Positions 33,696 to 50,069 of a stretch of 64,000 nt of DNA are shown here, one piece after another. The DNA lies in NCBI GenBank assembly GCA_022651005.1, contig JALCQD010000004.1, positions 1 through 64,000 of the forward strand. The letters are read 5' to 3'. The notes below the pieces were generated by a model that had not been told where the DNA came from, searched no databases, and saw only the letters and a program-made list of their open reading frames with translations. The position numbers and the translations under genes are program-made. The stretch comes from Bifidobacteriaceae bacterium (GTDB lineage: Bacteria > Actinomycetota > Actinomycetes > Actinomycetales > Bifidobacteriaceae). The number at the start of each line of letters is the position of its first letter. Position 1 is the first letter of the stretch.

Positions 33696-33745
33696 AGAAG
33701 GTCGTCGATTTCACTGTGGTGAGGATCGACGACCTTCTGTCTTCT
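33696..33745. terminator. Bidirectional terminator between the ABC exporter and the GH91 gene
   Basis: AGAAGGTCGTCGAT (33696-33709) and ATCGACGACCTTCT (33725-33738) are perfect complements with a 15-base loop. T-rich sequence follows on the plus strand. It also marks the left border of the AT-richer block. Confidence 0.85.
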
Positions 33746-33762: not shown

Positions 33763-35124
33763 CTACAGCGATGGGGTTGGCCTGAAGGCATTGTGGGATT
33801 TGTCGAGTGTCACTTGTCGCTCATTTCCTGAATCAAGAATCGTGTTGAGGGAAGAACTGTCTTCGACAAGAACGGTCGTTACATCAATTTTCTCAGAGGC
33901 AGAATTCGTGAGAAGTTGCTCAACTTGAGTTGAAAAGGTGGAGGAGCTTGAGGCGGGACCTTCGTCGGTGACTTGCTGCATTGATTCAGTTCTCGCTACA
34001 ACGTTATTGGCGGCTACATAATTCCCTTGACCTGTGACGAGACGAATGATGATGGGTATGGTACCTGTGGGCTTGATATTGTCGCGGTCAATGATCTCCG
34101 AAAAATGATTAGCAATGATGGAATTGTCGCTTCCTTCGATGCGAAGGATCCCGTAAAGATCATCATGTCCGTTGTTGTACTGACGCATCGGAGCCCAAGG
34201 CTCCTGGGAACGATAGATGTGGTTTGATGACACTAGATTTTCTGTACAGCCATTCTTCAGACTAATAACGCCTGGATAGAATGCATGAATTCGGTTACTA
34301 GTGATGGAGGAGCGGGATACCCCATCGAGTTCGATGCTGCTTGCACCTCTCGGGAAGATATTATTAGTGGTGATGAGGAGGCCGCCAAAATTCTGTGCAT
34401 AAATGGAGTGTCCCCTGAAGCCTGCACCAATCAGATTGTCAGTAATCTTAGAAGCTTGCCCTGAGCCGCGTAATTCAATGCAGCTGCCGCATTCTGCGAT
34501 GAAATTATCGTGGATGCTCAATGCATCCGCGTTGTAAATGGTGAGTCCATGTTCGAGATAGACTAATCCCATTTCATTGAATTTGAAAGAGTCCTGCGCG
34601 CTCGCTATATAAATACCTGTTTTCCCGTTGATGTAGGAATTCTCTGAATCTTCGGGCACTATCTGGTCTGCGCGAAAGTGTAGTCCGTCAATGCAGAAGT
34701 TTGAAAATTCTACAGAGCTGATGCGTGGTTCTCCGCCTCTTTCTATGAGGAATGCTGCTCCTGACTTTTCGTCTGGAATATTGGAAGGAGCGATGTCGAC
34801 TAGAATCCGGCTTCCTCCGGGCCATAGCTCGTGCATGTCTTTCCATTGGCTTTGAGGAGTGTTGTACCTTATAGACGAAGAAACGAATCCGTGTCCTGTC
34901 CCGAGGATCTTGAGGTAACTGACATCGATGAGGATTTGCGTCGAGAGACGATAATCCCCTGACGGTATGAAGATAGTGGCACCGGGTTTCCCTTCCCCAG
35001 TGACCGCGGACTCAGATTGTCTTTTCTTGATATCTGCAATGATGCTGTTAATGACGATTCCAATATCCTTGTGAGGATCACCGATAGGCCACTTCGATAT
35101 ATCGTAAAAATTTTCATCAGTCAT
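33763..35124 (-). CDS. GH91 protein: cytoplasmic difructose-anhydride hydrolase / inulin fructotransferase family
   Basis: 453 residues from ATG 35124 (AGGAGA upstream). A right-handed beta-helix protein that I place in GH91 from YDISKWPIGDPHKDIGIVI, KPGATIFIPSGDYRLSTQIL, LKILGTGHGF, WPGGSRI and NNIFPRGASSIELDG. The Asp/Glu pair known from inulin fructotransferases, 11 residues apart, is present as D206 and E217 (HDNF...CIELRG). GH91 contains secreted inulin lyases that form difructose anhydrides and intracellular enzymes that open them. This protein has no signal peptide, which favours the second role. It is divergent from a sugar ABC operon with GH32 and LacI. The exact anhydride (DFA I or III) is not decidable. 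Confidence 0.8.
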   Translation of the reverse strand: MTDENFYDISKWPIGDPHKDIGIVINSIIADIKKRQSESAVTGEGKPGATIFIPSGDYRLSTQILIDVSYLKILGTGHGFVSSSIRYNTPQSQWKDMHELWPGGSRILVDIAPSNIPDEKSGAAFLIERGGEPRISSVEFSNFCIDGLHFRADQIVPEDSENSYINGKTGIYIASAQDSFKFNEMGLVYLEHGLTIYNADALSIHDNFIAECGSCIELRGSGQASKITDNLIGAGFRGHSIYAQNFGGLLITTNNIFPRGASSIELDGVSRSSITSNRIHAFYPGVISLKNGCTENLVSSNHIYRSQEPWAPMRQYNNGHDDLYGILRIEGSDNSIIANHFSEIIDRDNIKPTGTIPIIIRLVTGQGNYVAANNVVARTESMQQVTDEGPASSSSTFSTQVEQLLTNSASEKIDVTTVLVEDSSSLNTILDSGNERQVTLDKSHNAFRPTPSL

Positions 35125-35187
35125 TGCGTCTCCTATATGATGTGTGACTTCTGCAAAAATCATAATAACGATTTAGAAATGAAATAA

Positions 35188-35263
35188 CAACCGGTAAACA
35201 TATAAATATAAATATGGATTCAAATCCTTGTAATCATGCGTATGCAGATATGTTATCCGGTTG
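35188..35263. promoter_or_regulatory. Inverted pair of 15-bp motifs in the divergent GH91/ABC promoter region
   Basis: CAACCGGTAAACATA (35188-35202, plus) and CAACCGGATAACATA (35249-35263, minus strand) agree at 13 of 15 positions and face each other. The second overlaps the -35 TTGACA of the ABC operon. A core CCGG suits a LacI-family regulator, and one is encoded in the cluster (40155). Confidence 0.55.
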
Positions 35264-35289
35264 ACATAGAATGAGTTCAGTTGTACTCT
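35261..35289 (+). promoter_or_regulatory. Promoter of the CUT1 ABC sugar operon
   Basis: TTGACA (35261-35266), a 17-base spacer, and TACTCT (35284-35289). A leader of about 55 bases precedes the binding-protein gene. Confidence 0.65.
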
Positions 35290-35350
35290 GTCTTTTGCCA
35301 GAGATGGCACATACATCCAAAGAAGAGGTAGTGGTTGTTGAAGGGAATTA

Positions 35351-36646
35351 GTGAAAGGCTCAATGATGAGGCAGAAAGCTAGAAAAATTATTGCGGCTGT
35401 TGCTACGGTTGCTGCCATGGTGTCGTTAGCGTCATGCGGTTCCGCGAGTTCATCTGCAAATGATAAGACTCTCAACCTGCTTGTGGAAGGCGGCGGTCCT
35501 GCTGAAAAAGTGGCACGTAATACAGCGGCTGCTTTTCAGAAGAAGACTGGTTACAAAATCAATATTGACACTTCTCCGTATTCCGGTCTGTACGACAAGC
35601 TGAAGGCGGAGACGGATTCAGGCAAAGCGACGCACGATCTCGCTGTTATTGATGTTCTTTGGTTCCCCTCTCTGGCAAAGGGTCTATCTTCTGTTGACGG
35701 AGTTCTTTCTGGCAGCGAAGAAAAAGATCTTATGCCACAGTTAAAGGAGGGTGGAACGGTCGACGGGAAGCTCCTCGGCATCCCGACGTGGACGAATTCG
35801 AAAGTTCTTCTCTACCGCAAAGATCTCTTCGAAAATGCTGCCAATAAAAAAGCCTTCAAAGCTAAGTATGGCTATGATCTAAAGGTTCCTACGACATGGC
35901 AAGAATACCGTGATGCAGCAAAATTCTTCACGAAGGGTGACATGTACGGCACTGCAATGATAGGTCAGACGGGAGCTGATTCTGTCACGGGATGGCTGGA
36001 GTTCGCCGCTCAGGCCGGTGCCAAGAACTTGGTTATCGGTAAAGATGGGAAACCTGATCTTAATGATAAAGCGTATAAGGATGCTTTGAATTATATGCAG
36101 CAATTGGTGAAGGATGGGTCAATTCCGTCTGATTATCTTTCACTCGGTACAAGTGAAATCTCGGACATGTTCAACCAGGGTAAGTTAGCTATGCAATTGA
36201 CTTGGGGCCACTTCTATCTGTCATCTGCAAAGGAACTTGGTAACAAGGTCGGCGCCGCACCCATGATTGGTGGTTCGGCTGGAATCGGTGCAATTCCAGG
36301 ACCTTGGTATGAGGTTCTTATGAAGAATTCCACAAAACAGGAGATAGCAAAGAAGTATCTCGAATTCATGTATGGGCAAAATGAGGGATACATGAAGGCG
36401 CTGGGCGTTGCTGCTCGCAAGAGCGTATTTAAGAAATATGAAAATAATCCTAAGTATGAACATGTGAAAGCACTTGAAACGACTCTTGCCTCACCACAGA
36501 CGCAAAATCGCCCTGCTACAAAGCTGTGGACTCAAGCGGAGACGGAAATTCTTTCGCCCATGGTCCAAAGCACGCTCAAGGGTTCTAGTGCCACCCAAGA
36601 ACTGGGAACGGCACAGAAGTCAATCGAGGATCTTTTGAACTATTAG
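35351..36646 (+). CDS. CUT1-type ABC sugar-binding lipoprotein
   Basis: 431 residues. The signal peptide ends in a lipobox (SLASC, Cys29 from GTG 35351). The extracellular solute-binding family 1 fold is seen in NLLVEGGGPAEKVARNTAAAF, DLAVIDVLWFPSLAKGL, LGIPTWTNSKVLLYRKDLF and TWQEYRDAAKFF. It captures an oligosaccharide for the two permeases that follow. GTG 35351 has AAGGG five bases upstream; ATG 35363 or 35366 (GAAAGG upstream) are alternatives. With GH91 and GH32 alongside, a fructose disaccharide or difructose anhydride is the likely ligand (inference). Confidence 0.92.
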   Translation: MKGSMMRQKARKIIAAVATVAAMVSLASCGSASSSANDKTLNLLVEGGGPAEKVARNTAAAFQKKTGYKINIDTSPYSGLYDKLKAETDSGKATHDLAVIDVLWFPSLAKGLSSVDGVLSGSEEKDLMPQLKEGGTVDGKLLGIPTWTNSKVLLYRKDLFENAANKKAFKAKYGYDLKVPTTWQEYRDAAKFFTKGDMYGTAMIGQTGADSVTGWLEFAAQAGAKNLVIGKDGKPDLNDKAYKDALNYMQQLVKDGSIPSDYLSLGTSEISDMFNQGKLAMQLTWGHFYLSSAKELGNKVGAAPMIGGSAGIGAIPGPWYEVLMKNSTKQEIAKKYLEFMYGQNEGYMKALGVAARKSVFKKYENNPKYEHVKALETTLASPQTQNRPATKLWTQAETEILSPMVQSTLKGSSATQELGTAQKSIEDLLNY

Positions 36647-36698
36647 TCAGAGTCTTTAAGGGCTGTAAGAATTATTGATTCTGTAAAGGAGCAAGAGA

Positions 36699-37649
36699 AT
36701 GGCTGGGAAAGCGGCTATTAAAATAAATGGGGCGCACACGGGTATTGCCAAACCGCGCAAAAAGAGAAGAATGCTGAGTTCGACTTTTGACAGGAAGAGC
36801 TTAATGCTGTTTTTCCTGCCTGCAGGCCTTTTTATGGCCGCTTTCCTGTTATTCCCTTTACTAAAGCTTGTCTATGACAGTTTTTTCGACGTCGGAGATA
36901 ATTATGATGGACGAACTTTTGTGGGGCTTAAAAATTACATCAAAGCATTTACTTCGCAGCAATTCCAGGCTGATTCATGGCATACCGTGGTGTATGTCAT
37001 AGTTGCAGTTGGTGTTGAGACTGTTCTTGGTCTCGCGCTCGCTGTTATTCTCACGAATAAATACAAAGGTTTCAAAGCCATAAGGACCTTCATCCTGTCA
37101 CCTTTGATGATTGCGCCGTTAGTGGCTGGTCTCGTGTGGAAGTTCATGCTGAGTAGCCAGTTTGGCGTCGTCAATGTATTGCTTATGAAGATTGGGCTCA
37201 TTCATTCGACAGACAGTATCTTGTGGTTGTCTGATTCACGGTTGGCTCTTATTTCCTGCATCATCGCAGATGTGTGGCTGACGACACCATTCATGATGCT
37301 AATGTTCCTTGCTGGGATTCAATCGATCCCAGATAGTCTGTATGAGTCTGCCAGCGTCGAAGGTGCCAATAAGTGGCAGATCATTACGAAGATCATCATT
37401 CCTAATATCAGCGGAGTTCTTTTCAGCGCGCTTGTTATTCGAGTGATTGATGCAGCGAGAACATTCGACATTATTTGGGCCATGACTCAGGGCGGTCCTC
37501 AAGGCTCTTCCGAACTTTTAAGTGTCCATATCTACAAGATGCTTCAACGGTATGGAGATGTGGGATACGCAAGTGCGATGGCAGTCATCTTCATTATTGT
37601 GCTCATCGCTATAACGCTCATCACTCAGTTGCGGCAGAAGAGAAGGTAG
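36699..37649 (+). CDS. ABC sugar permease, MalF/LacF type
   Basis: 316 residues with six membrane helices and a basic cytoplasmic start (AKPRKKRRMLSS). The EAA loop that docks the ATPase is ESASVEGANKWQIITKIIIPNI (about 209-230). AAAGGAG precedes the ATG. It pairs with the next permease. No ATPase gene is in the cluster, which is usual for CUT1 systems that share an MsmK-type ATPase. Confidence 0.93.
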   Translation: MAGKAAIKINGAHTGIAKPRKKRRMLSSTFDRKSLMLFFLPAGLFMAAFLLFPLLKLVYDSFFDVGDNYDGRTFVGLKNYIKAFTSQQFQADSWHTVVYVIVAVGVETVLGLALAVILTNKYKGFKAIRTFILSPLMIAPLVAGLVWKFMLSSQFGVVNVLLMKIGLIHSTDSILWLSDSRLALISCIIADVWLTTPFMMLMFLAGIQSIPDSLYESASVEGANKWQIITKIIIPNISGVLFSALVIRVIDAARTFDIIWAMTQGGPQGSSELLSVHIYKMLQRYGDVGYASAMAVIFIIVLIAITLITQLRQKRR

Positions 37650-37657
37650 GCATAGAT

Positions 37658-38512
37658 ATGTTTAATGAAAAGTTTGGGCGTAACAGAAGAGATAATGTCT
37701 GGATCATTATTATGTATGCGCTTGCAGTGGTATTTCTGCTAGGCTTCATTTTCCCATATCTTTATATGTTGTTCTCCTCTTTTAAGCCGTCTGCAGACGT
37801 TATTTCGGTGCATCCGACGTTCTTTCCGAAGTCGTGGTCAATTGAGAACTATCTCAAAGTTTTTCAGACATCCGATATAGGCAAGTTCTTTGCAAACAGC
37901 TTTATTGCCGCAGCCGTGAGTACGATTATCTGTTTGCTGCTAGGGTCGCTTGCTTCGTATGCAATTTCACGAACATCATTGTCTAAATTCAGTAACTTTC
38001 TACTGATTCTTGTTCTGTGTCTCAAGATGATTCCAGTGTCCAGCATTGTCGTCCCAATTTATAGTTTGGTGCAACAATTTGGATTCTATGATTATCTACC
38101 GGTGCTGTGCATCGTTTATGCAGGTGTGAATATGCCATTTGTATTGTGGATGATGATTAGCTTCTTCAAGGATGTTCCCCGCGATCTCGATGAGGCAGCA
38201 GCAGTTGATGGGGCCGGTCCTTTTACGGCGTTCTTTAAGGTTATTCTTCCGGTAGTGACGCCCAGTCTCATCTCTACAGGCATCTTCACCTTCCTTCTGT
38301 CGTGGAATGACTTCCTCATCGCACTCTTGCTGACAAGCAGCGAGGCGAAGACCGTACCTGTTGCACTATCCGAATTCCTGACATCGTACAGCCTAGATCT
38401 AGGGCCAATGACTGGTGCAGCTGTATTGTTCTCGTTCCCTGTCATTATCTTGTCCTTCTTCCTGCAGAGATACCTCGTATCTGGGATGCTTGCTGGTTCA
38501 GTGAAGGGCTAG
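37658..38512 (+). CDS. ABC sugar permease, MalG/LacG type
   Basis: 284 residues from ATG 37658, eight bases after the preceding stop; the much longer upstream frame is an overlap artefact. There are six membrane helices and an EAA loop DEAAAVDGAGPFTAFFKVILP. The start MFNEKFGRNRRDNVWIIIMYAL and the VISVHPTFFPKSWSIENY segment are typical of the second CUT1 permease. It completes the importer with the binding protein at 35351 and the permease at 36699. Confidence 0.93.
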   Translation: MFNEKFGRNRRDNVWIIIMYALAVVFLLGFIFPYLYMLFSSFKPSADVISVHPTFFPKSWSIENYLKVFQTSDIGKFFANSFIAAAVSTIICLLLGSLASYAISRTSLSKFSNFLLILVLCLKMIPVSSIVVPIYSLVQQFGFYDYLPVLCIVYAGVNMPFVLWMMISFFKDVPRDLDEAAAVDGAGPFTAFFKVILPVVTPSLISTGIFTFLLSWNDFLIALLLTSSEAKTVPVALSEFLTSYSLDLGPMTGAAVLFSFPVIILSFFLQRYLVSGMLAGSVKG

Positions 38513-38574
38513 AAAGGTTAATTCTGAAGCACGGGAGTACGTAATAGTTCGCAGTGATGATGAATGGAGTAGTT

Positions 38575-40065
38575 GTGTCCCAGGAAACAATGAAGGCGGC
38601 AATTGATCGAGCCCAGAAATACATCGATGAGCATGCACCTAAAGTTCGTGAAGCGAGTATGCGTCAAAGATATCATTTTATGGGACCGTGTGGGTGGATC
38701 AATGACCCTAATGGATTGATTTACTATAAAGGCCAATATCACCTATTTTATCAATTTAACCCATATAGTGCGTTCTGGTCCCAGATGTATTGGGGCCATG
38801 CGGTGAGTGAGGATATGCTTCATTGGAAGCAGCTGCCGCCCGCTCTTGCTCCAAGCGAGTCTTATGATGCTCACCCGCAAGGGGGTTGTTTCTCAGGATC
38901 TGCTATTGAGAAAGATGGCAGGCTTTATCTTGTGTATACGGGTGCTGCAAACCTTGGGAAGGGTCTCGAACAGACTCAAAATATCGCAGTGAGTAGTGAT
39001 GGAATTCACTTCGAAAAGTATGAGGGGAATCCAGTTGTCACTGCGCCGGAGGGCGTTGCCATCGATTCCTTCCGCGATCCTAAGGTGTGGGAACATAACG
39101 GTCGCTACTATTTCGTTTGTGCTGCACAGCGTGAAGGTAGGGCTCAGGCGTTGCTGTACCGCTCAGATGACTTGTTGCATTGGGAGTTCTTCAACGTGCT
39201 ACTCGAATCGCGTGGCGAATGGGGGTACATGTGGGAATGTCCTGATTTCTTCCAGCTCGGCGATAAATGGGTTTTCCTCTGCTCTCCGATGGGTGCCGGC
39301 GAGCGTACCACGGTGTATTTTGTGGGCGATTTTGATTATGGCACGGGAAAGTTTACGTACACTTCGACGGGTGAAGTCGATTGGGGACTTGACTTATATG
39401 CGCCCCAGACCTTCTTGGATCATCAGGGAAGACGATTGATGTTTGGATGGGCAAATGAGTGGGAATGGATGCGTTACTGGAAAGACTGGGGTCCGACATT
39501 CCGCGAGGGTTGGTGTGGGTCTTTTTCTTTGCCGCGTGAAATCTCTTTAGGTGAAGATGACATGCTGATCTTTTCTCCGATAGCAGAGCTGAATCAGCTA
39601 CGCGAAACGCCAACCCTCGTCAATTCGATGAAAATAGATCCTGGCCGAGCACGCAGTGTGAAGGCCGGTGATGGTGTGGCATTCGAGTTGTCCTTCTCTC
39701 TTGATTTGGAGGCATCGGAATCCTCATCGGTTCTCCTGTCACTGAGGAAAGGCGCAGGACGAGAGCTAACGTGTATTTTCGATTTGGAACATGCTGAGGT
39801 ACGCATTGACCGCAATAATGCTGATGGCTGGGGGAAGGGAGTCAGTTCTAGTCCGTTGAGTCTACGGGGAGAGCCCCTTCTTGATGTGCGTGTGTACTCG
39901 GATCAGAGTTCGGTTGAGTTGTTTGTCGGTAATGGCACAAACGTCCATTCTATGAATGTTTTTGCACCGTCGACTCAGAATGGTATCGAGATTGCGGCTC
40001 GAGACGGGATAGCTATCGTGCAAGATGTTCGAGGCTATGGGATGAAATCTATTCCAGCCGCTTGA
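38575..40065 (+). CDS. GH32 beta-fructofuranosidase / sucrose-6-phosphate hydrolase-type
   Basis: About 496 residues without a signal peptide. Catalytic motifs are all intact: nucleophile Asp in GWINDPNG, transition-state stabiliser in FRDPK, and acid/base Glu in WECPDFF. A five-bladed propeller is followed by a C-terminal beta-sandwich (from about 345). It hydrolyses beta-fructosides in the cytoplasm; with the GH91 product inulobiose it would give two fructose. The start is taken as GTG 38575, five bases after GGAG; GTG 38554 and ATG 38557/38560 are upstream in frame. It is the last gene of the ABC operon before lacI. Confidence 0.92.
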   Translation: MSQETMKAAIDRAQKYIDEHAPKVREASMRQRYHFMGPCGWINDPNGLIYYKGQYHLFYQFNPYSAFWSQMYWGHAVSEDMLHWKQLPPALAPSESYDAHPQGGCFSGSAIEKDGRLYLVYTGAANLGKGLEQTQNIAVSSDGIHFEKYEGNPVVTAPEGVAIDSFRDPKVWEHNGRYYFVCAAQREGRAQALLYRSDDLLHWEFFNVLLESRGEWGYMWECPDFFQLGDKWVFLCSPMGAGERTTVYFVGDFDYGTGKFTYTSTGEVDWGLDLYAPQTFLDHQGRRLMFGWANEWEWMRYWKDWGPTFREGWCGSFSLPREISLGEDDMLIFSPIAELNQLRETPTLVNSMKIDPGRARSVKAGDGVAFELSFSLDLEASESSSVLLSLRKGAGRELTCIFDLEHAEVRIDRNNADGWGKGVSSSPLSLRGEPLLDVRVYSDQSSVELFVGNGTNVHSMNVFAPSTQNGIEIAARDGIAIVQDVRGYGMKSIPAA

Positions 40066-40154
40066 GACGTAGGTGCGTATGAATAATATAGATGAAGACG
40101 ATTTGATGGGGTTTGTAGCTCATCTTTAGTCAAACTTGATAATAGGAGCGCGAA

Positions 40155-41174
40155 ATGGCTACCATCACAGACGTTGCCCGTGTGGCAGGTGTGTCTAAAA
40201 ATACCGTTTCGCGTTTCCTTAATGAACGAGGCTATATTTCCCAACAGACTCGGAAGAAGATTCAAGACGCCATCGATTTGTTGCATTATCAACCTAATCA
40301 GATAGCGAGAAGCCTTTTTACCAACAAGACGAACATGGTGGGACTTGTCATTCCAGATGTAAGCCAGCCTTTCTTCGCGACGATGACGTCCAAGATCGAG
40401 GACGAGCTTGATCGGCGTGGCTACAAGATGATTCTTTGTAACACCATGCATTCATCGAGTAAGGAAAGAAAGTATCTCGATATGCTCACTGCCAACAAAG
40501 TCGATGGAATCATCATTGGCAGCCATTCAATCGATATTAATTATTCGGGCATCAAAGCCCCCATTGTGGCTCTTGATCGTTTCCTTTCGGACACGATTCC
40601 AGTGGTGTCAGCAGATCATGCGCAAGGTGGCTTGATGGCAGCGAATGCTGTCCTGAAAAGAGGATGCCGTAACGTCGCTCAGTTCATTGGATATTCGAAA
40701 GTTCGTACACCCTCAGCCAAGCGGCATCAGGTTTTCGCTCAGCAAATGCATCAGAGTGGTATCCCCTGCGCCACATACGAATTAAGGCTCAACCAATTCG
40801 AGTTTGCGACGTATCTTAAGACCGTGGATGATTTTTTGGAGGAGAACTCCAATGTTGATGGCGTTTTTGCATCTGATCTTGTTGCGCTGGCTATTCAGCG
40901 ACAGGCACTTGCTCGTGGGGTTAGAATTCCGGATGATCTGTTCATCTTTGGCTATGATGGATCTTTTGTATCTCAGATTGCGTATCCTGCCTTACCTACA
41001 ATCGTGCAGCCCTTTGAGGAGTTAGCGAAGACTCTTGCTGATGTTCTTGTTCGGGAAATTAATGGTGAACAAGTGGAGAAACTGTCCTATACCCTGCCCG
41101 TCAAAGAGTCTGATGGATATGTGGAAAGTGCCTTAAGCTCAAAGGCTGATTTATTTATGCCATTTCCTTTTTAG
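40155..41174 (+). CDS. LacI-family transcriptional regulator of the fructoside cluster
   Basis: 339 residues. The LacI helix-turn-helix is ATITDVARVAGVSKNTVSRFLNERGYIS with the hinge YQPNQIARSLF (about 44-55). A periplasmic-binding-like sugar domain follows (GLVIPDVSQPFFA, DGIIIGSH, VDGVFASDLVALA, FIFGYDG). TAGGAG lies about 8-9 bases before the ATG. Its position at the end of the ABC-GH32 genes suggests that it represses this cluster and the divergent GH91 gene, probably through the CCGG-centred sites at 35188-35263. Confidence 0.92.
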   Translation: MATITDVARVAGVSKNTVSRFLNERGYISQQTRKKIQDAIDLLHYQPNQIARSLFTNKTNMVGLVIPDVSQPFFATMTSKIEDELDRRGYKMILCNTMHSSSKERKYLDMLTANKVDGIIIGSHSIDINYSGIKAPIVALDRFLSDTIPVVSADHAQGGLMAANAVLKRGCRNVAQFIGYSKVRTPSAKRHQVFAQQMHQSGIPCATYELRLNQFEFATYLKTVDDFLEENSNVDGVFASDLVALAIQRQALARGVRIPDDLFIFGYDGSFVSQIAYPALPTIVQPFEELAKTLADVLVREINGEQVEKLSYTLPVKESDGYVESALSSKADLFMPFPF

Positions 41175-41287: not shown

Positions 41288-41848
41288 ATGGACGCGGGTA
41301 TTTCGAGTTCAGATGGTGTAAGAATGCTTGAAATCAATTTCGGGTTGCCGAAAGACGACGTGGATTATGTTGCGAGTTATGCCGCTGTCAAGGGTTTTAG
41401 CCTTGAACGGGCCCTCTTAGAACAGCTTCTTGCAAAGGATCATGGCGCGCAGCTTATGGAAGAGCTTCTCGCTATGTCGTCGTTGCTCACTCAAAAGCGT
41501 CACGGTGCTGGAGAGCGAAATCCTTCTGAAGACTATTGCTCATTTACATTTTCCGTGACGAGCGACATCTTCGACGCGCTGCTTGATAGCGCTCACCATC
41601 GTGGCATGCTGCTCAATGAGTTCATCAACCGCAGGATTCTGGAATTTCACATACAGAACCCCATTCTGTGTCTTACTGAATTGACGAGGTTGGCCCGGGC
41701 TCACGATATGAGCGTGAAGGACCTCATCGATGCTTCTCGCAAGGGGTGTGTGGACGGTGAGATCTCTTCGACCGTGCTGCACCTCTTTGAGCGGGCGCAG
41801 CAGGAAGTTGTTGAATATGAGGCGGCCAAGGCGCGTTTAGCTCGCTGA
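41288..41848 (+). CDS. Small protein with two ribbon-helix-helix-like units
   Basis: 186 residues from ATG 41288, or 174 from ATG 41324; no clear Shine-Dalgarno sequence precedes either. Two segments have the strand-helix-helix pattern of RHH DNA-binding domains: LEINFGLPKDDVDYVASYAA + KGFSLERALLEQLL (about 14-48) and YCSFTFSVTSDIFDALLDSA + RGMLLNEFINRRIL (about 82-118). A helical C-terminus follows. The first resembles RelB/DUF6290-type antitoxins, but no toxin gene is adjacent. It may be an autonomous regulator. The IS begins 43 bases after its stop. Confidence 0.6.
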   Translation: MDAGISSSDGVRMLEINFGLPKDDVDYVASYAAVKGFSLERALLEQLLAKDHGAQLMEELLAMSSLLTQKRHGAGERNPSEDYCSFTFSVTSDIFDALLDSAHHRGMLLNEFINRRILEFHIQNPILCLTELTRLARAHDMSVKDLIDASRKGCVDGEISSTVLHLFERAQQEVVEYEAAKARLAR

Positions 41849-41883: not shown

Positions 41884-41891
41884 GGAATTAG
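41884..41891. repeat. IS target-site duplication, left copy
   Basis: GGAATTAG at 41884-41891 is repeated at 43211-43218 directly outside the other IS end. The 8-bp length suits IS256-superfamily elements. Confidence 0.9.
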
Positions 41892-43210
41892 GGGTTATAG
41901 GAAAATAAACGTGTATGGAATTGGCTGGTAGGGGTTGGGGTTGTTGGTCTGAGTCGGGTTTTATATCCTGGTCTGGTTATTCCTGCCCGGAAAACACGTG
42001 TGTATGGAATCTGTCGTAGGATACTGGGATTACTGGGATTCGATGGGTTTTATATTCCTCGGGTTGACTGGGTTGCATGAGGACACCAGTGTGCCATGTT
42101 TGCAACGAGACGATGAGACGGAACGGGACCACGTCGAAAGGTACCACCCGGTGGAGGTGCACCACGTGCGGAACCTCGAAAGTGTTTCCCAACGTGAAGG
42201 ACAACGGTCTCGAGGAGTTCCTCTTCTGGCTGTTCTCCAAAAACACCCAGGCCCAGGCCAGCGGTCAGACCTCCCGCTCGTTCCGCAACCACACGGCCCG
42301 CTATTGGGACTACTGGCCCAGGACGCCTTTGATCGGCGAACCCCATGAGTGGATCCATGTTGATGGCATCCATCTGGGAAGGAACGCGGTCGTGCTCATC
42401 GCCGTGGACGAGACCGGCATGGTACTGGGCTGGCACACGGCCCGTTCCGAATCGGCGCGGGCGTGGAGCGCCCTGTTCGCCAGGATCGCTCCTCCCCGCG
42501 TCCTGGTCTGCGACGGAGGAAGCGGCATCCGGAAAGCCATGCGGGCCTGCTGGCCGGGGACCCGGATGCAGCGCTGCCTGTTCCACGTGTTCATGGACGT
42601 CACCGTTCTGACGACCCGGCATCCCCAACTCCAAGCGGGCAGGCAATTGCTCGACCTGGCCCACCGCCTCCTCCACGCCACCACCCGGCAACGGGCCACC
42701 CGATGGCTCCGCGATTATTCCGCGTGGGAATCCAGGTGGCATGAGCGGCTGGCCGAGACCAGCACCTATACGGACGGCAGCATCCAACAGGCCCACCAAC
42801 GCCTCGTGCGCGCCAGGAACATGCTCAACAGGCGAATCGGAGAAGGCGTCCTCTTCGAGTTCCTCCAACCAGAACACGATCATCACGACGTCCCCTGGAC
42901 GAACAACCGGATCGAGTCCCTCAACGCCAGGCTCAGAGACATGCTCCGCAACCACCGCGGCCTCAGCCTGATCAGACGGATCAAGGCCATCCACTGGTAC
43001 TGCAGCAGGCACACGGCCCACCCCGAGCCCCTCGACCACACGCTCGAGCACTGCTGGAGCGACCAACAGATCACCGACCTCTACCAGCAGGCATGGCAGA
43101 ACCAACCCGAACAGATCTGGGCCCTCACCGGCATCCCCATGAAATACGGAACCGGCATCCAATGGAACGAATTCCACACCTAACCAGACACACTTATTTT
43201 CCTATAACCC
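41892..43210 (+). mobile_element. Intact 1,319-bp insertion sequence, IS1249-like (IS256 superfamily)
   Basis: The ends are inverted repeats: both begin GGGTTATAGGAAAATAA and agree at 24 of 27 bases (41892-41918 and 43184-43210). They are flanked by the 8-bp duplication GGAATTAG. The single transposase gene is intact. The element is more G+C-rich than the cluster to its left, and its perfect target duplication suggests recent arrival. Confidence 0.93.
42077..43183 (+). CDS. Transposase, IS1249-like
   Basis: 368 residues. The N-terminal zinc ribbon (C6, C9, C28, C31) is followed by a DDE nuclease core: WIHVDGIHLG, VLVCDGGSGIRKA and WTNNRIESLNARLRDML supply the Asp, Asp and Glu. LFHVFMD after the second Asp (the CxxH-like C-x-F-H region, RCLFHV) is typical of IS256/MULE-type transposases. 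No frameshift or stop is seen, so it should be active. It ends at the inner edge of the right inverted repeat. Confidence 0.93.
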   Translation: MRTPVCHVCNETMRRNGTTSKGTTRWRCTTCGTSKVFPNVKDNGLEEFLFWLFSKNTQAQASGQTSRSFRNHTARYWDYWPRTPLIGEPHEWIHVDGIHLGRNAVVLIAVDETGMVLGWHTARSESARAWSALFARIAPPRVLVCDGGSGIRKAMRACWPGTRMQRCLFHVFMDVTVLTTRHPQLQAGRQLLDLAHRLLHATTRQRATRWLRDYSAWESRWHERLAETSTYTDGSIQQAHQRLVRARNMLNRRIGEGVLFEFLQPEHDHHDVPWTNNRIESLNARLRDMLRNHRGLSLIRRIKAIHWYCSRHTAHPEPLDHTLEHCWSDQQITDLYQQAWQNQPEQIWALTGIPMKYGTGIQWNEFHT

Positions 43211-43218
43211 GGAATTAG
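43211..43218. repeat. IS target-site duplication, right copy
   Basis: GGAATTAG, same as 41884-41891. Confidence 0.9.
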
Positions 43219-43237
43219 ATTCCCGAGGATTCAACTG

Positions 43238-43310
43238 TGGCCCCCGTGGGACTCGAACCCACAACCCACGACTTAAAAGGACGCTGCTCTAACCATTGAG
43301 CCAGAGGGCC
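43238..43310 (-). tRNA. tRNA-Lys (UUU)
   Basis: 73 nt on the minus strand. The acceptor arms GGCCCTC and GGGGGCC pair, the D stem is GCTC/GAGC, the anticodon loop is CTTTTAA (anticodon TTT), and the T arm is GTGGG-TTCGAGT-CCCAC. The discriminator is A and CCA is not encoded. The anticodon stem has one T-T mismatch (position 30-40). The terminator just downstream is broken by the IS. Confidence 0.93.
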
Positions 43311-44267: not shown

Positions 44268-44592
44268 ACGGTAAGGGCATCTTGGCTTCCGATTGCGTTA
44301 AGGGCTAAGAAAAATCACGAGAGAAATATCGAATTTTTAGCAACTTTTATCTCGTGTTCTTATCAACACAACTTGTCGAAATTTCGCGAAAGCCTCGAAA
44401 ACGTTGAAATGTCAAGGGTCATATCTGCGCCGATGGCGTACTTCAGTTACGAAATTTTTCAATTCCTGATATAGGATAGCGCCATCGTTTATTGAATTCG
44501 TCGATTATCGGGGGTTGTCAGCGCAAACCACGTTGTGAGCGTGACAGTTAGTGCGGCACAAGTCCTGATTTTTGGATGAGGGGATGTGCCCA
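44268..44592. other. AT-rich leader region of the pilus operon
   Basis: No gene is seen. A 7-bp inverted repeat CACGAGA/TCTCGTG (44316-44322, 44350-44356) and a TATAGGAT-like box near 44470 are the only notable signals. The region is much AT-richer than the genes on either side. Confidence 0.45.
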
Positions 44593-47235
44593 ATGATGGA
44601 AGCCCTATCTCGCCTTCGTGCATCGAGGGTAGCGAAGATACTGGTTGCCGCTGCCGTGGTGCTCTGTCTCGCGTCGCCGGGAACGGCTCAGGCTTCCCCG
44701 GGAGCCCAGGACCAGGCGTCGCCATCGGCCTCCTCTTTTGAGTGCTCCACTAACACCGTGTACAGCCTTTCTGAAGCCGGAAGCGTCACTCGTCTGGTGC
44801 TTGACCCCGCGAAGGACAGCGTCACGGCTACAAGGGGAATTGTTAAGGGACTGTCGGGACGAGGCATTCACGCGAATGGTCTGGGCATCTCTGCGAACGG
44901 TACGCAGGCAGTCGCCTTCACTCGAAACTCACGAGCGACGTGGTCTATCGACAACCTTCTGACGGCGTCTGGTGACACTTCGTCCATGCGGTGGACGACG
45001 CACAATGACACGGATTACAACACGAAGATGGACGATAACTCTCTCGTTGCGGGCGCAGTTGATCTCACCACCGGAAATTATTTCTTTGGCGGATTCGACA
45101 TGTATTCGTGGGAGGGAACCGTTCACTTCGATGTCTTCATGTATTCGCCAAGCACTGGCAAGTATTCGCAGGTCGGCCACTTCGATACCGGATTGAAGCC
45201 ACACACCTCTTCACAAGTCGCGTATTTCAACGGTGACATGGCCTTCGATTCCAACGGAAACCTCTACGTATTGCGCAGTGCGGGAGGCAAGGGAACTACG
45301 AATCTGTATTCCATCACAGCGCAAGAGGTGCGCGATGCAGCGACTCACCCCAACAGTCTCAATGAGCTTGAGGCGCAAGAACTGGCACAAGGGAAAATCG
45401 ACGTCAGCGGCATTAATGGTGCCGCGTTCGGCGGCGACGGGTCTCTGTATCTGAGCAACGAGACGAATCTGTACCGCTACGACGCCAACACATGGAAGCT
45501 GCTGGGGCAGTATCGAGACGTCGTGGACGATGGAACGGATCTCGCGAGCTGTAATTCCCCCTCTACCATCTCACTTGAAAAGAATCTTCCGGACGGGCGC
45601 ATCGCGGAATCGGATCAATTCACAATTTCCCTTATACAATCCAACGGCACCGCATACTCCGCAACAACGCAAGGGAGCGACACTGGGCAGCAGGATGCCG
45701 TGGTCGGCCCGGTGCCAGCGATGCAGGGAACGACGTTCACCATCGGGGAGACCATGGCGAAGGGCTCAGTGTCTCGCCTCGATGACTACACCACAACGTG
45801 GCGCTGTGACGACGGAAGCGGAACGGTCGCAACCGGAGACTTAAGCGCGGGTCACACCACCGTAAGCATTCAAAAGGCGGGGTCGGCGCTCACATGTCAT
45901 CTCACCAATGCAATTACGGGGACGGGGAGCCTGACATGGAGCAAGCATGAGGAGTCGGCGGCTGGCCCCGACACCACAAATCTGCTGGGTGGCAGCAAAT
46001 GGTCGTTCGTGGGAGGCACGGTTGGTGAGGCGGAAGCAACGTTCACTGTCTCTGACTGTGAGTCAGCACCGTGCCCGATGAGCAGTTCAGCTTCCGAACT
46101 TGCCGACATGGATCCAGCTCCGGGGCAATTCCGCATCGATAACCTGCCGTTTGGCACTTATATTCTCAACGAAATCGAGGCGCCAAAGGGGTACCAGATA
46201 GCAGCGTCCCCCACGCGCGTGATTGTGAGCGGATCGGTGGCAGGAGGCACGGCTATCGATGTGGGCGCTTTTGAGGACTCGATGGTGCCGCCTGCGCGTG
46301 TCAGTGTAAGTAAAACGGTTCACGATATCTTTGGTCACGACGTCAGCGGTACAAGCGCCAACTGGACCATGAACGTACAACTAGCGGTGCCGACCGCGGG
46401 CATAGAAATCACGCCCAACGCCACGCGCGACACCCATTACCCAGGCAGAACTGGGCAGGGGCCTACCGCCACCACTCTGCCCTGGACGGTAAGTTTTCCC
46501 GGCAATTCCACGGCGACCGCACTGAAGGTGAGTGAAATTCTCACAGGCGCGCGAGCGGATGCTTACGATGTCACCTCGATGACCTGCGCACGCCAGGATG
46601 GCACGGACATCGATGTCAGCAAGCCCACGGTGACGCAATCCACTACTGCGGATGGCAGCACGGTCACCATGGTGAGTGTCACCACGGCACCGACTGTAGC
46701 TTCTGGAGACGCCATCACCTGCTCCGTGGTGAATCAACAGCGACCGGGAACCGTGGAATGGGAAAAGCGGATGGACAACGCGGCCGGAACCCTTCTCGGC
46801 GGCAGCTCATGGACATTCACCCATCTCGCAAGCGGCACTGAGTTCACGGTTGAAGACAACGAGGGCCAGGCGCAGTATACCGGCCGTGATTCGGATCCAA
46901 CGCCGGGAGCATTTCACGTGAAGAACTTGGCGTGGGGGCAGTACTCGGTCACGGAGAAGGCGGCGCCGCTTGGATACGCCACGTTGGAAGAGACGGAAAC
47001 GTTCACCATCTCCGCTACGAATCTGCATGATAAGCGTGTTTTTCCCGTGCTCAACCACCAGAGTGAGGTGCCGGCGCTTCCGTTGACGGGTGGCATGGCA
47101 AGCAAAGACGGGCTGACGATTCTCGGACTCGGCGTCATGGTGGTGTCTGCGGCGATCCTGGGCGGATACGTCGTTATGCGGTATCGGCGGCGTGACGCCG
47201 GGCGCCAAAGACCTCCCAATAACCCAACTGTGTGA
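44593..47235 (+). CDS. Large sortase-dependent pilin, probable tip adhesin (LPLTG)
   Basis: 880 residues from ATG 44593, nine bases after GAGGGG; the ATGs at 44584 and 44596 are alternatives. Signal peptide (ILVAAAVVLCLASPGTAQA), then a large N-terminal domain (about 40-330) with beta-propeller-like repeats (DSNGNLYVLRSAGG, GDGSLYLSNETNLYRYD). SpaA-type Ig domains follow, with FRIDNLPFGTYILNEIEAPKGY and FHVKNLAWGQYSVTEKAAPLGY (E boxes). The end is LPLTGG, a membrane helix and basic residues. First gene of a tip-backbone-sortase operon; the N-terminal domain probably binds host or mucus ligands. Confidence 0.9.
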   Translation: MMEALSRLRASRVAKILVAAAVVLCLASPGTAQASPGAQDQASPSASSFECSTNTVYSLSEAGSVTRLVLDPAKDSVTATRGIVKGLSGRGIHANGLGISANGTQAVAFTRNSRATWSIDNLLTASGDTSSMRWTTHNDTDYNTKMDDNSLVAGAVDLTTGNYFFGGFDMYSWEGTVHFDVFMYSPSTGKYSQVGHFDTGLKPHTSSQVAYFNGDMAFDSNGNLYVLRSAGGKGTTNLYSITAQEVRDAATHPNSLNELEAQELAQGKIDVSGINGAAFGGDGSLYLSNETNLYRYDANTWKLLGQYRDVVDDGTDLASCNSPSTISLEKNLPDGRIAESDQFTISLIQSNGTAYSATTQGSDTGQQDAVVGPVPAMQGTTFTIGETMAKGSVSRLDDYTTTWRCDDGSGTVATGDLSAGHTTVSIQKAGSALTCHLTNAITGTGSLTWSKHEESAAGPDTTNLLGGSKWSFVGGTVGEAEATFTVSDCESAPCPMSSSASELADMDPAPGQFRIDNLPFGTYILNEIEAPKGYQIAASPTRVIVSGSVAGGTAIDVGAFEDSMVPPARVSVSKTVHDIFGHDVSGTSANWTMNVQLAVPTAGIEITPNATRDTHYPGRTGQGPTATTLPWTVSFPGNSTATALKVSEILTGARADAYDVTSMTCARQDGTDIDVSKPTVTQSTTADGSTVTMVSVTTAPTVASGDAITCSVVNQQRPGTVEWEKRMDNAAGTLLGGSSWTFTHLASGTEFTVEDNEGQAQYTGRDSDPTPGAFHVKNLAWGQYSVTEKAAPLGYATLEETETFTISATNLHDKRVFPVLNHQSEVPALPLTGGMASKDGLTILGLGVMVVSAAILGGYVVMRYRRRDAGRQRPPNNPTV

Positions 47236-47306
47236 TGTACGTAGTGCTGCTGTGCGCAAGCGCGCAGTCGTGTTCAGTGTCGAACAGACCATGAGAAAGG
47301 TAGATT

Positions 47307-48944
47307 ATGACAATCAAAAAACAAAGCGCGCGCTGCCTGCTCTCTGCTGCCGCGTGTGCGGTGACAGTCGCCGCGATGGGCATGCTGGGCGGCGTTGGAG
47401 CGCCGGTTGCTCACGCTGCGGGCGGCGGGATCGACGTGAATGCCAAGGGCTCCATCACGATTCATAAGCACGCTCATCAGGCGTCTGATGCTTCGGGGAA
47501 CAAGGTCACCGGCCCGGTGGATGGGTCTGGAGACACCATGACGGATCCGCTCAACAACGTCGGTTTCACGGGATATCAGATCACGTCGTTCGACCTCACC
47601 AAATCCGACAGCTGGGAGACGCTGAAGACCTTTTCGGTCCCCGAGAATGCGTGCGACGACCCGGCCGGTCCTCAGATCGCAGGGCAGAGCTTCGGCGCTG
47701 CCATCGACTTTGCGAAAACGGGATCAGATAAGACCCTGGGCGATGGCGTCACCAAGACGGACAATCTCGCAATCGGCGCGTATCTGATCTGTGAGACGAG
47801 TGCGCCCACTGGAGTTATCGAAACATCAGCACCGTTCGTGGTGACGGTGCCCTTCCCGGACTCGGCGGCGAGCGGAGCCGGTTCCGCAGCCACCAATAAC
47901 TGGATCTATGACGTTCACGTCTATCCCAAGAATGGTGTGGCAGAAATCGACAAGACCGTTCTTCCGCAGGATAGTCTCGGCATAGGCTCCACGGCCACAT
48001 TCCCCGTGACGACGAAGGTTCCGCGCATAGCCGCCGTGGACGGATTCAAGAAATTCGCCATCTCAGACAAGCTCGAGTCTCGTCTCGCAGAGGGAGCTGT
48101 GAAATCGGTGAGCTACCGTGACGCCAGTGACCCGGACGCCGCCTCCAAGGATGCCCTGCCGGTTGACACGAAGTACTACACGGTCGATGGCCCGACTTCC
48201 GATGGCACTGTCACCGTGACGTTCACTTCCGACGGCCTGGCATGGCTTCGAACGCAGAGCGGATCCACCATTGAGGTGATGTTCACAGCGAAGGTGACGA
48301 ATGTGGGCGACGGTTCCATCAAGAACATTGCCATCCTGCACGCGGGGACCACCGACATTGATCCGCAGGTTCCCAGCCCCGAAGTCAGTCAGAACTGGGG
48401 AGACGTCATCATCAAGAAGGTGGATTCTGCCTCGAAGGCACCCTTGGGCGGCGCAAAATTCGAGATCTACGAGGCAGCGGATCCCTATCCTGCCGCGGGC
48501 TCGGATTGTTCTCACGCAATCGCCCAGGGAGCCACTCCCATCGCGGTGAGTACGGGTGCCTCGGGTGCCACCACCACGACCTTCACTACGGATAACGCTG
48601 GAATGGTCACCATTCCCGGCCTCTTCGTCTCCGATTCCGAGAATGGCGTCGTCGACAGCACCTTCCGCTGCTACGTCCTCAAGGAGGTGGCGGCACCTCT
48701 GGGCTACGTGGCCCCGCAGGACACCACCACCGCTGTGCGAGTGCAGGCCGGCACCACCGCCACCGATGCAGTGGACGTGACGGTGTCCAACACCAAGTCC
48801 ACCGTGCCGCCACTGCCGCTCACAGGTTCGAACGGCACCATTCTCGCAGTCGTCCTCGGCGTTCTCACACTTGCTGGCGCCATCTTCCTGATGATTTGGT
48901 ACGCGCGCCGCACGTCACAGGACGTCAAGGGAATCCGGAAGTGA
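47307..48944 (+). CDS. Backbone fimbrial pilin (FimA/SpaA type, LPLTG)
   Basis: 545 residues. Signal peptide ending at ...GAPVAHAA, a D1 domain beginning GSITIHKH, and the pilin motif YDVHVYPKNGVAEIDK (the YPKN lysine used by sortase for polymerisation, about residue 210). A D2 domain with DKLESRL is followed by a C-terminal Cna-B-like domain with E box CYVLKEVAAPLGY, which also carries two cysteines (SDC and FRC) likely to form a disulfide. The C-terminus is LPLTG, helix, YARR. GAAAGG precedes the ATG. It makes the pilus shaft, joined by the class C sortase downstream. Confidence 0.93.
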   Translation: MTIKKQSARCLLSAAACAVTVAAMGMLGGVGAPVAHAAGGGIDVNAKGSITIHKHAHQASDASGNKVTGPVDGSGDTMTDPLNNVGFTGYQITSFDLTKSDSWETLKTFSVPENACDDPAGPQIAGQSFGAAIDFAKTGSDKTLGDGVTKTDNLAIGAYLICETSAPTGVIETSAPFVVTVPFPDSAASGAGSAATNNWIYDVHVYPKNGVAEIDKTVLPQDSLGIGSTATFPVTTKVPRIAAVDGFKKFAISDKLESRLAEGAVKSVSYRDASDPDAASKDALPVDTKYYTVDGPTSDGTVTVTFTSDGLAWLRTQSGSTIEVMFTAKVTNVGDGSIKNIAILHAGTTDIDPQVPSPEVSQNWGDVIIKKVDSASKAPLGGAKFEIYEAADPYPAAGSDCSHAIAQGATPIAVSTGASGATTTTFTTDNAGMVTIPGLFVSDSENGVVDSTFRCYVLKEVAAPLGYVAPQDTTTAVRVQAGTTATDAVDVTVSNTKSTVPPLPLTGSNGTILAVVLGVLTLAGAIFLMIWYARRTSQDVKGIRK

Positions 48945-49181
48945 GCACAGTGGTAGTGAATACACAAAATCGTGGGTAAGCGACGTGTGGGCGTGGGCGC
49001 GCGCGGTGTTGGTTCCGTGGTGCCAGCCTGGGTAGTCCACTGCACTTACTCGCCCGCGGCGGGGAGGAAAGAGAGCTGAGCCGTCGTCGTATGAAGGAGA
49101 GGAAAGGGAGTGGAATCGTGTCAGCGATGACCGATTTTGCTCCCTTATTCTGCGTGATGCACTTTCGTTGGAAGGACAATC

Positions 49182-50069
49182 GTGACGCGGCTTCATTACC
49201 GCAAGGCTTACCGCAAGAAATACCGGACGCAGGGAAGTGCTGGCGTGATTCCCCTCGTGGCCGGCGTTCTTGCCTTTGTGGGAGCTTGCATTCTGTTGTA
49301 TCCAAGCGCTGCCGCCTGGGTATCCCAGTACAACCAGTCCAAGATCATCGTGGGGAATCTGGCGGATTCCACGTCAAGCGTGGCCGAGCGCGCCTTCGCG
49401 GCTCGGGAACTCAGCTCAGCTGAAGACTACAACCGACGATTGGTGGCGGGGGCTATTTATTCCGCACGCACCAATGCCCCATTGGGGACGGGTGCGGATT
49501 CAGATATTGAATATGGGCGTCTCCTCGATGGCGGTGACGGGCTCATGGGTCGCCTTCAGATTCCGAGCATCGACCTCGATCTTCCGATGTACCACGGCAC
49601 CGAGGACGCCACGCTGCTCAAGGGCATAGGGCACTTGCATGGGACGTCGCTACCTGTGGGCGGGAAGAATACGCATGCCGTTCTGACCGGGCACCGCGGC
49701 CTTGCCAACGCCGAGATGTTCACGCGGCTTAATGAGGTGCGCCAGGGGGATGAGTTTACGGTATCGACGTTCGGGCGCGTCCTCACCTACCGTGTGGTGC
49801 GCACGCAGGTGGTGGAACCGACGGATACGCGCTCGCTGAAAGCCGTACAGGGCAAGGATTTGGTGACCTTGGTGACGTGTACGCCGTTGGGCATCAATAC
49901 GCAGAGGATTTTTGTGACAGGAGAGCGGGTAATCCCCTCGCCTCAGGAGGCGGTTGATTCGGCAGGAGCTCGTCCGGAGATTCCCACGTTTCCGTGGTGG
50001 GGAATCATTCTGGCGACGATTGCGTTCGCCGACATCGGCGTCGTGGTGTGGGTGATGAGAAAGAGGTGA
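49182..50069 (+). CDS. srtC: Class C (pilus-assembling) sortase
   Basis: 295 residues. N-terminal membrane helix (VIPLVAGVLAFVGACILLY), catalytic His171 in LTGHRG, catalytic Cys233 in TLVTCTPLGINTQR and Arg242. A second helix near the C-terminus (WWGIILATIAFADIGVVVWVM) is the class C hallmark. It cleaves LPxTG signals of the two pilins upstream and links them through lysine. GTG 49182 has GGAAGGA upstream. The 237 bases after the backbone pilin hold no gene. The DPF/W-type lid motif usual in class C enzymes is not obvious. Confidence 0.94.
   Translation: MTRLHYRKAYRKKYRTQGSAGVIPLVAGVLAFVGACILLYPSAAAWVSQYNQSKIIVGNLADSTSSVAERAFAARELSSAEDYNRRLVAGAIYSARTNAPLGTGADSDIEYGRLLDGGDGLMGRLQIPSIDLDLPMYHGTEDATLLKGIGHLHGTSLPVGGKNTHAVLTGHRGLANAEMFTRLNEVRQGDEFTVSTFGRVLTYRVVRTQVVEPTDTRSLKAVQGKDLVTLVTCTPLGINTQRIFVTGERVIPSPQEAVDSAGARPEIPTFPWWGIILATIAFADIGVVVWVMRKR

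Follow-up and report, generated by a model that had tools for sequence, protein, structure and literature searches.

Difructose anhydride III (DFA III) is a cyclic sugar that occurs in caramel and is produced from inulin. It is marketed as a prebiotic and as an aid to mineral absorption, and is understood to be fermented by Blautia, not by bifidobacteria. A six-gene locus in a 64,000-nucleotide stretch of a Bifidobacteriaceae genome (GCA_022651005.1, contig JALCQD010000004.1; hereafter the window) raises the question of whether members of this family can import DFA III and open its ring. A first-pass annotation had described the locus as one for scavenging an unspecified difructose anhydride, composed of genes for a GH91 enzyme, a CUT1-type SBP with two permeases, a GH32 enzyme and a LacI regulator. 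All six genes, reported at 33763-41174, were found there intact, and their family assignments agree (Table 1). The reading as a difructose-anhydride locus also stands, but the anhydride should be specified as DFA III. With this amendment the earlier interpretation is supported at the sequence level, and the most likely role of the locus is to scavenge DFA III from outside sources.

Table 1. Features of the locus, in coordinates of the window
Feature	Position	Strand	Remarks
Perfect 14-bp inverted repeat; probable bidirectional terminator	33696..33738		lies where the upstream ABC gene and the GH91 gene converge
GH91 enzyme of DFA-IIIase type, 453 aa	33763..35124	-	catalytic pair D200/E211; lid insertion; no signal peptide
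GH91 promoter-like site	35190-35162	-	
Operator-like site ATGTTTACCGGTTGTTAT	35184..35201	-	overlaps -35 TTGTTA of GH91 promoter-like site
Operator-like site ATGTTATCCGGTTGACAT	35250..35267	+	overlaps -35 TTGACA of importer-operon promoter
Likely importer-operon promoter, TTGACA-17-TACTCT	35261..35289	+	seen by eye; below the automatic scan's cut-off
SBP (lipoprotein) of CUT1-type ABC importer	35363..36646	+	
Permease 1 of ABC importer	36699..37649	+	
Permease 2 of ABC importer	37658..38512	+	start MFNEKF as in relatives
GH32 beta-fructofuranosidase, cytoplasmic	38554..40065	+	WINDPNG, RDP and EC motifs
LacI-family regulator	40155..41174	+	

The first-pass annotation staked its reading on membership of GH91, and in a profile search the minus-strand protein falls in that family, matching PF18835 ('Beta helix repeat of Inulin fructotransferase'). 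The comparison with DFA-forming and DFA-hydrolysing enzymes that it proposed favors the hydrolase subtype by bit scores, lid, tree and Foldseek. In a PDB search a DFA-IIIase is matched at E=7e-179. The match to AcDFA-IIIase from Arthrobacter chlorophenolicus (5zks) is full length (ORF residues 16-465) at 598 bits, as compared with 349-360 bits for DFA-III-forming inulin fructotransferases and 247 bits for 8hsn, described as DFA I-forming. A lid insertion at approximately residues 378-415 (391-428 in the 466-aa ORF) is present in the window's protein and in all DFA-IIIase-type sequences aligned, and is absent from the four inulin fructotransferases aligned; the lidless form that marks an inulin fructotransferase is therefore not the form seen here. 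In a maximum-likelihood tree, built without AcDFA-IIIase (which was compared through the PDB matches) and without a Blautia sequence, the lidded sequences form a separate clade with support of 100/100. On that tree, genomes from another family of the order (f2) sit with a named Arthrobacter plasmid on short branches. The predicted model, built without plasmid rows, is a beta-helix with a mean pLDDT of 73.7, and its first 22 Foldseek matches in the PDB are all DFA-IIIase chains; pLDDT in the lid is below 50, so that the lid is called from sequence. Family and subtype are directly established, with the minus-strand GH91 assigned to the DFA-IIIase (difructose anhydride III hydrolase) subtype.

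The gene starts with the ATG at 35124, which has AGGAGA just ahead of it and agrees with the N-termini of relatives. With this start the reported ORF proves real and 453 rather than 466 aa long, and the Asp/Glu pair singled out earlier keeps its 11-residue spacing under corrected numbers, D200/E211 (D213/E224 in the 466-aa ORF) in place of D206/E217. These residues correspond to the catalytic D207/E218 of the A. aurescens enzyme. Seven active-pocket residues have been discussed for that enzyme (PMC4640833); when positions are transferred through the A. chlorophenolicus protein (offset 8), six are identical here (D200, E211, Y164, R259, R278 and H280), and the seventh, S76, is changed to Thr. 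Thr also takes the place of C387 in the AcDFA-IIIase lid (the C387A mutant was crystallised), a position occupied by Cys in most relatives and by Ala in three others. As had been noted, the enzyme has no signal peptide, judging by eye from its N-terminus (MTDENFYDISKW...), and relatives are alike in this respect.

The sample of the family comprised 189 genomes in 16 genera, the largest of them (g5) probably Bifidobacterium and the window's own (g1) small, with three genomes; GH91 matches occur in seven of the 189, this one included. Five of the other six, representing two further genera of Bifidobacteriaceae, have full-length genes, with identities of 61-65% for GH91 and 75-90% for the transporter. 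One stop codon was scored within the match in G102 and likewise in G133; as the G102 ORF is 454 aa long and the reading frame of G133 also stays open over 454 aa, these stops are the normal ends of the genes. All five relatives have the GH91 gene facing away from SBP-permease-permease, which a LacI gene follows. In G102 and G150 the GH32 gene is an orthologue at the same place; G034 and G045 have a different, adjacent GH32 in its stead, and the G133 cluster has none, the one GH32 of that genome lying elsewhere. The invariant core across the six loci is thus GH91, importer and LacI; its constancy beside a variable GH32 points to the GH91 substrate, and not that of GH32, as the importer's cargo. 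The remaining match, in G083, is solely a decayed, internally deleted GH91 relict (L012; G083:C4:21266-21791), in which the lid region can still be read; the stretch yielded no importer genes.

Regulatory sites are conserved along with the genes. The two near-palindromic sites between the GH91 and SBP genes recur as a pair, one per divergent promoter, in all six loci, and TTGACA with TAxxxT at 17 bases is found at the matching place in relatives. The importer-side operator is the best kept, and the GH91-side site of G150 is degenerate (4 mismatches). Matches with up to three mismatches outside these particular intergenic regions are absent from the 20-kb loci of four of the five relatives, and the fifth locus, L013, has two extra places. 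In a whole-genome scan the two sites are the only perfect copies, a score to be expected because the pattern was written after the sites had been seen; a reversed control pattern gave none. The informative observations are the recurrence in relatives and the absence elsewhere. Conservation of both module and operators is directly observed, and the linked LacI presumably binds both candidate operators. At the other end of the GH91 gene, the inverted repeat in Table 1 does not appear in the output of the terminator scan.

The gene inventory completes the picture. Transport, GH91 and GH32 genes all lie in one cluster, the combination by which a DFA III utilisation cluster is recognized, and the GH32 product has both its N and C domains. 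No ATPase gene is present inside the cluster; elsewhere in the genome a single stand-alone ATPase of the UgpC/MsmK type scores above the family cut-off. The SBP is only distantly akin to any structure-solved protein, and its cargo is therefore assigned by gene association. The locus gene is the one clear GH32 of the genome, a second match (29.5 bits) being marginal. Neither a second GH91, secreted fructotransferases included, nor GH172 (PF11175, which we take to be the GH172 domain) was found in the genome, absences that are not absolute given an assembly estimated to be 95.6% complete; PF11175 occurs in 66 of the 189 family genomes. Missing its own fructotransferase, the strain would depend on externally made DFA III and could only scavenge it.

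From this directly read set of genes we infer the cargo, the reaction and the inducer, and we hold with high confidence to an explanation that joins DFA III import, ring opening, GH32 cleavage and LacI control. DFA III from other organisms, or from heated sugar, would be captured by the lipoprotein SBP and imported through the two permeases, powered by the shared MsmK/UgpC ATPase encoded elsewhere. In the cytoplasm the GH91 DFA-IIIase would open the ring reversibly to give inulobiose, which GH32 would hydrolyse to fructose, thereby pulling the equilibrium of ring opening forward. By binding the operator at each of the two divergent promoters, LacI would repress them until released by a sugar ligand. 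Weighing against this explanation are the Thr residues in place of S76 and C387, the wider substrate range of the Blautia enzyme, the failure of five Bifidobacterium species to use DFA III, the lack of GH32 in one cluster and the distance of the SBP from solved structures. A bolder proposal, for and against which we are evenly divided, is that the SBP importer of six genomes in three genera is specific for DFA III, that it serves a niche on DFA III from the secreted IFTases of others or from cooking, and that LacI senses DFA III or inulobiose. Should this be true, no other importer of DFA III would, as far as we could find, have had its specificity established earlier, and the published view that bifidobacteria have no DFA III pathway would be overturned.

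The same gene association is seen outside the family. When 72,556 plasmids were searched blind with the SBP (tblastn), a GH91 match lay 3.1-4.5 kb away in at least 47 of the 60 top-scoring records. Since these come mostly from related Rhizobium plasmids, they do not count as independent events. One of the other 13 reads, by annotation, LacI-SBP-permease-permease-ATPase-GH91-GH32. In other families of the order, a lidded GH91 is accompanied by relatives of the SBP and of the two permeases in eight of eight 20-kb stretches. On plasmids of Latilactobacillus, Citrobacter and Rahnella the transporters paired with a DFA-IIIase-type enzyme are of the PTS or MFS kind. The Citrobacter freundii plasmid pA-NDM-202212 (L040), a resistance plasmid, carries such a gene with an MFS transporter, a kinase, GH32 and LacI, and has aph and sul2 close to it. 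Among the fructotransferase-type GH91 proteins, L037 has a twin-arginine-like leader, unlike those of L035, L036 and L038 (6769-7965), which show no obvious signal peptide ahead of YDVTTW.

These associations bear on the most serious alternative, that the operon mainly takes up short fructo-oligosaccharides (FOS; kestose, nystose or inulobiose), with GH91 as an accessory for longer FOS or DFA by-products. Such a role would suit a GH32 that is the sole clear beta-fructofuranosidase of its genome, and the Blautia DFA-IIIase, which splits nystose into DFA III, inulobiose and sucrose, also acts on inulin (PMC11538131), so that the cargo here could include short FOS. As the main purpose of the operon, however, FOS uptake is unlikely: GH91, SBP, permeases and LacI are kept in 6/6 loci, whereas GH32 is orthologous in three, different in two and absent in one, and importer relatives elsewhere adjoin lidded GH91 enzymes. 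We give next to no credence to the reading of GH91 as a DFA-forming inulin fructotransferase and not a hydrolase. The two activities do share a family, and an Arthrobacter hydrolase becomes a fructotransferase when its lid is removed (PMC11538131), but here the lid is present, the hydrolase clade is fully supported, the best matches are all DFA-IIIase, and the protein is without a signal peptide with which to get at inulin.

A further alternative concerns the history of the locus. Its GC content is 46% against 57% for the rest of the window, its GC3 is approximately 0.49 against 0.60-0.73 in most neighbors, and the loci of all five relatives have GC below that of their own flanks. In the tree a Selenomonadaceae MAG is the weakly supported partner (84/69) of the six family GH91s; this MAG was the only match in a genome-contig scan with one protein, and 398 sampled genomes of its phylum gave no further matches. 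The low GC and this grouping suggest that the locus was acquired and later spread. No orthologue was found in two genus mates with incomplete genomes, where an empty-site comparison matched the flanking genes at 68-69%, in fragments only. Low GC and GC3, the IS1249-family element alongside, the missing orthologues and the decay of GH91 in G083 might together indicate a recently acquired, silent or decaying island that is functionless in its host. Against this, none of the six genes is broken, conservation extends to promoters and operators, and other genera have kept the module, which makes such an island very improbable. The IS1249-family element (41886-43216, with 33-nt imperfect terminal inverted repeats) separates the locus from a tRNA-Lys gene (43237-43310, minus strand), adjoining the tRNA 3' end. 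A tRNA-Lys integration island was considered and rejected, as the window has no second copy of the tRNA end and the adjoining element is IS1249. Viral contigs gave no match, and no near-identical nucleotide match was found among plasmids.

The DFA III scavenging pathway proposed here is itself already known, from soil Arthrobacter and, since 2024, from gut Blautia. In the Blautia gene set, both enzyme steps were demonstrated biochemically and a route from import via inulobiose to GH32 was proposed (Ye et al. 2024; PMC11538131). The clusters of B. parvula, hansenii, hydrogenotrophica and wexlerae share with this locus a GH91 DFA-IIIase, GH32 and an ABC transporter, and in both cases the ring would be opened inside the cell before cleavage to fructose; the present locus differs in belonging to another phylum and in its divergent layout, LacI gene and two shared operators. 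The inulin-to-DFA III pathway of Arthrobacter/Paenarthrobacter (5zks; PMC4640833) likewise combines a lidded cytoplasmic GH91 with SBP, permeases, LacI and GH32, but Arthrobacter-type genomes have an extra GH91 of the DFA-forming type a few kb away (L038, L063, L065, L066), which the window's genome does not. Rhizobium plasmid clusters (for example on pRLG202 and pR132501) have LacI, SBP, two permeases, GH91 and GH32 in common with it; their operons include a UgpC ATPase gene, whereas the importer described here would draw on a shared ATPase encoded at a distance.

Within the family, the Bifidobacterium dentium alphaFFase1 locus also combines difructose anhydride use with an intracellular GH32. 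Its GH172 enzyme is unrelated and retaining, and acts on DFA I, not DFA III (Kashima et al. 2021; PMC8605356). The suggestion that GH91 is a second, independent solution beside GH172 therefore fails: the present locus, in a genome where GH172 is missing, is a route for another substrate. Five Bifidobacterium species, all different from the source of this DNA, failed to use DFA III in an earlier test as cited by PMC8605356, and surveys of B. pseudocatenulatum and B. adolescentis count GH91 by automatic annotation, the portions consulted giving neither locus nor function. What is new is the presence of the pathway in Bifidobacteriaceae, reported to be without a DFA III route. With a conserved, regulated locus in this family, DFA III use would become a question for the species level; lidded GH91, SBP and operator provide a marker set for finding DFA III users in genomes, and the locus supplies a candidate DFA III-specific ABC importer and regulator.

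Two features lie downstream in the window. A 186-aa ORF 3' of LacI (41288-41848) has no significant Pfam or NCBIfam match, and a tblastn search of the relatives' loci found no counterpart. Farther on, two large LPxTG-like pilin ORFs and a sortase-like ORF, recognized by eye, probably constitute a sortase-dependent pilus cluster (44572-50069).
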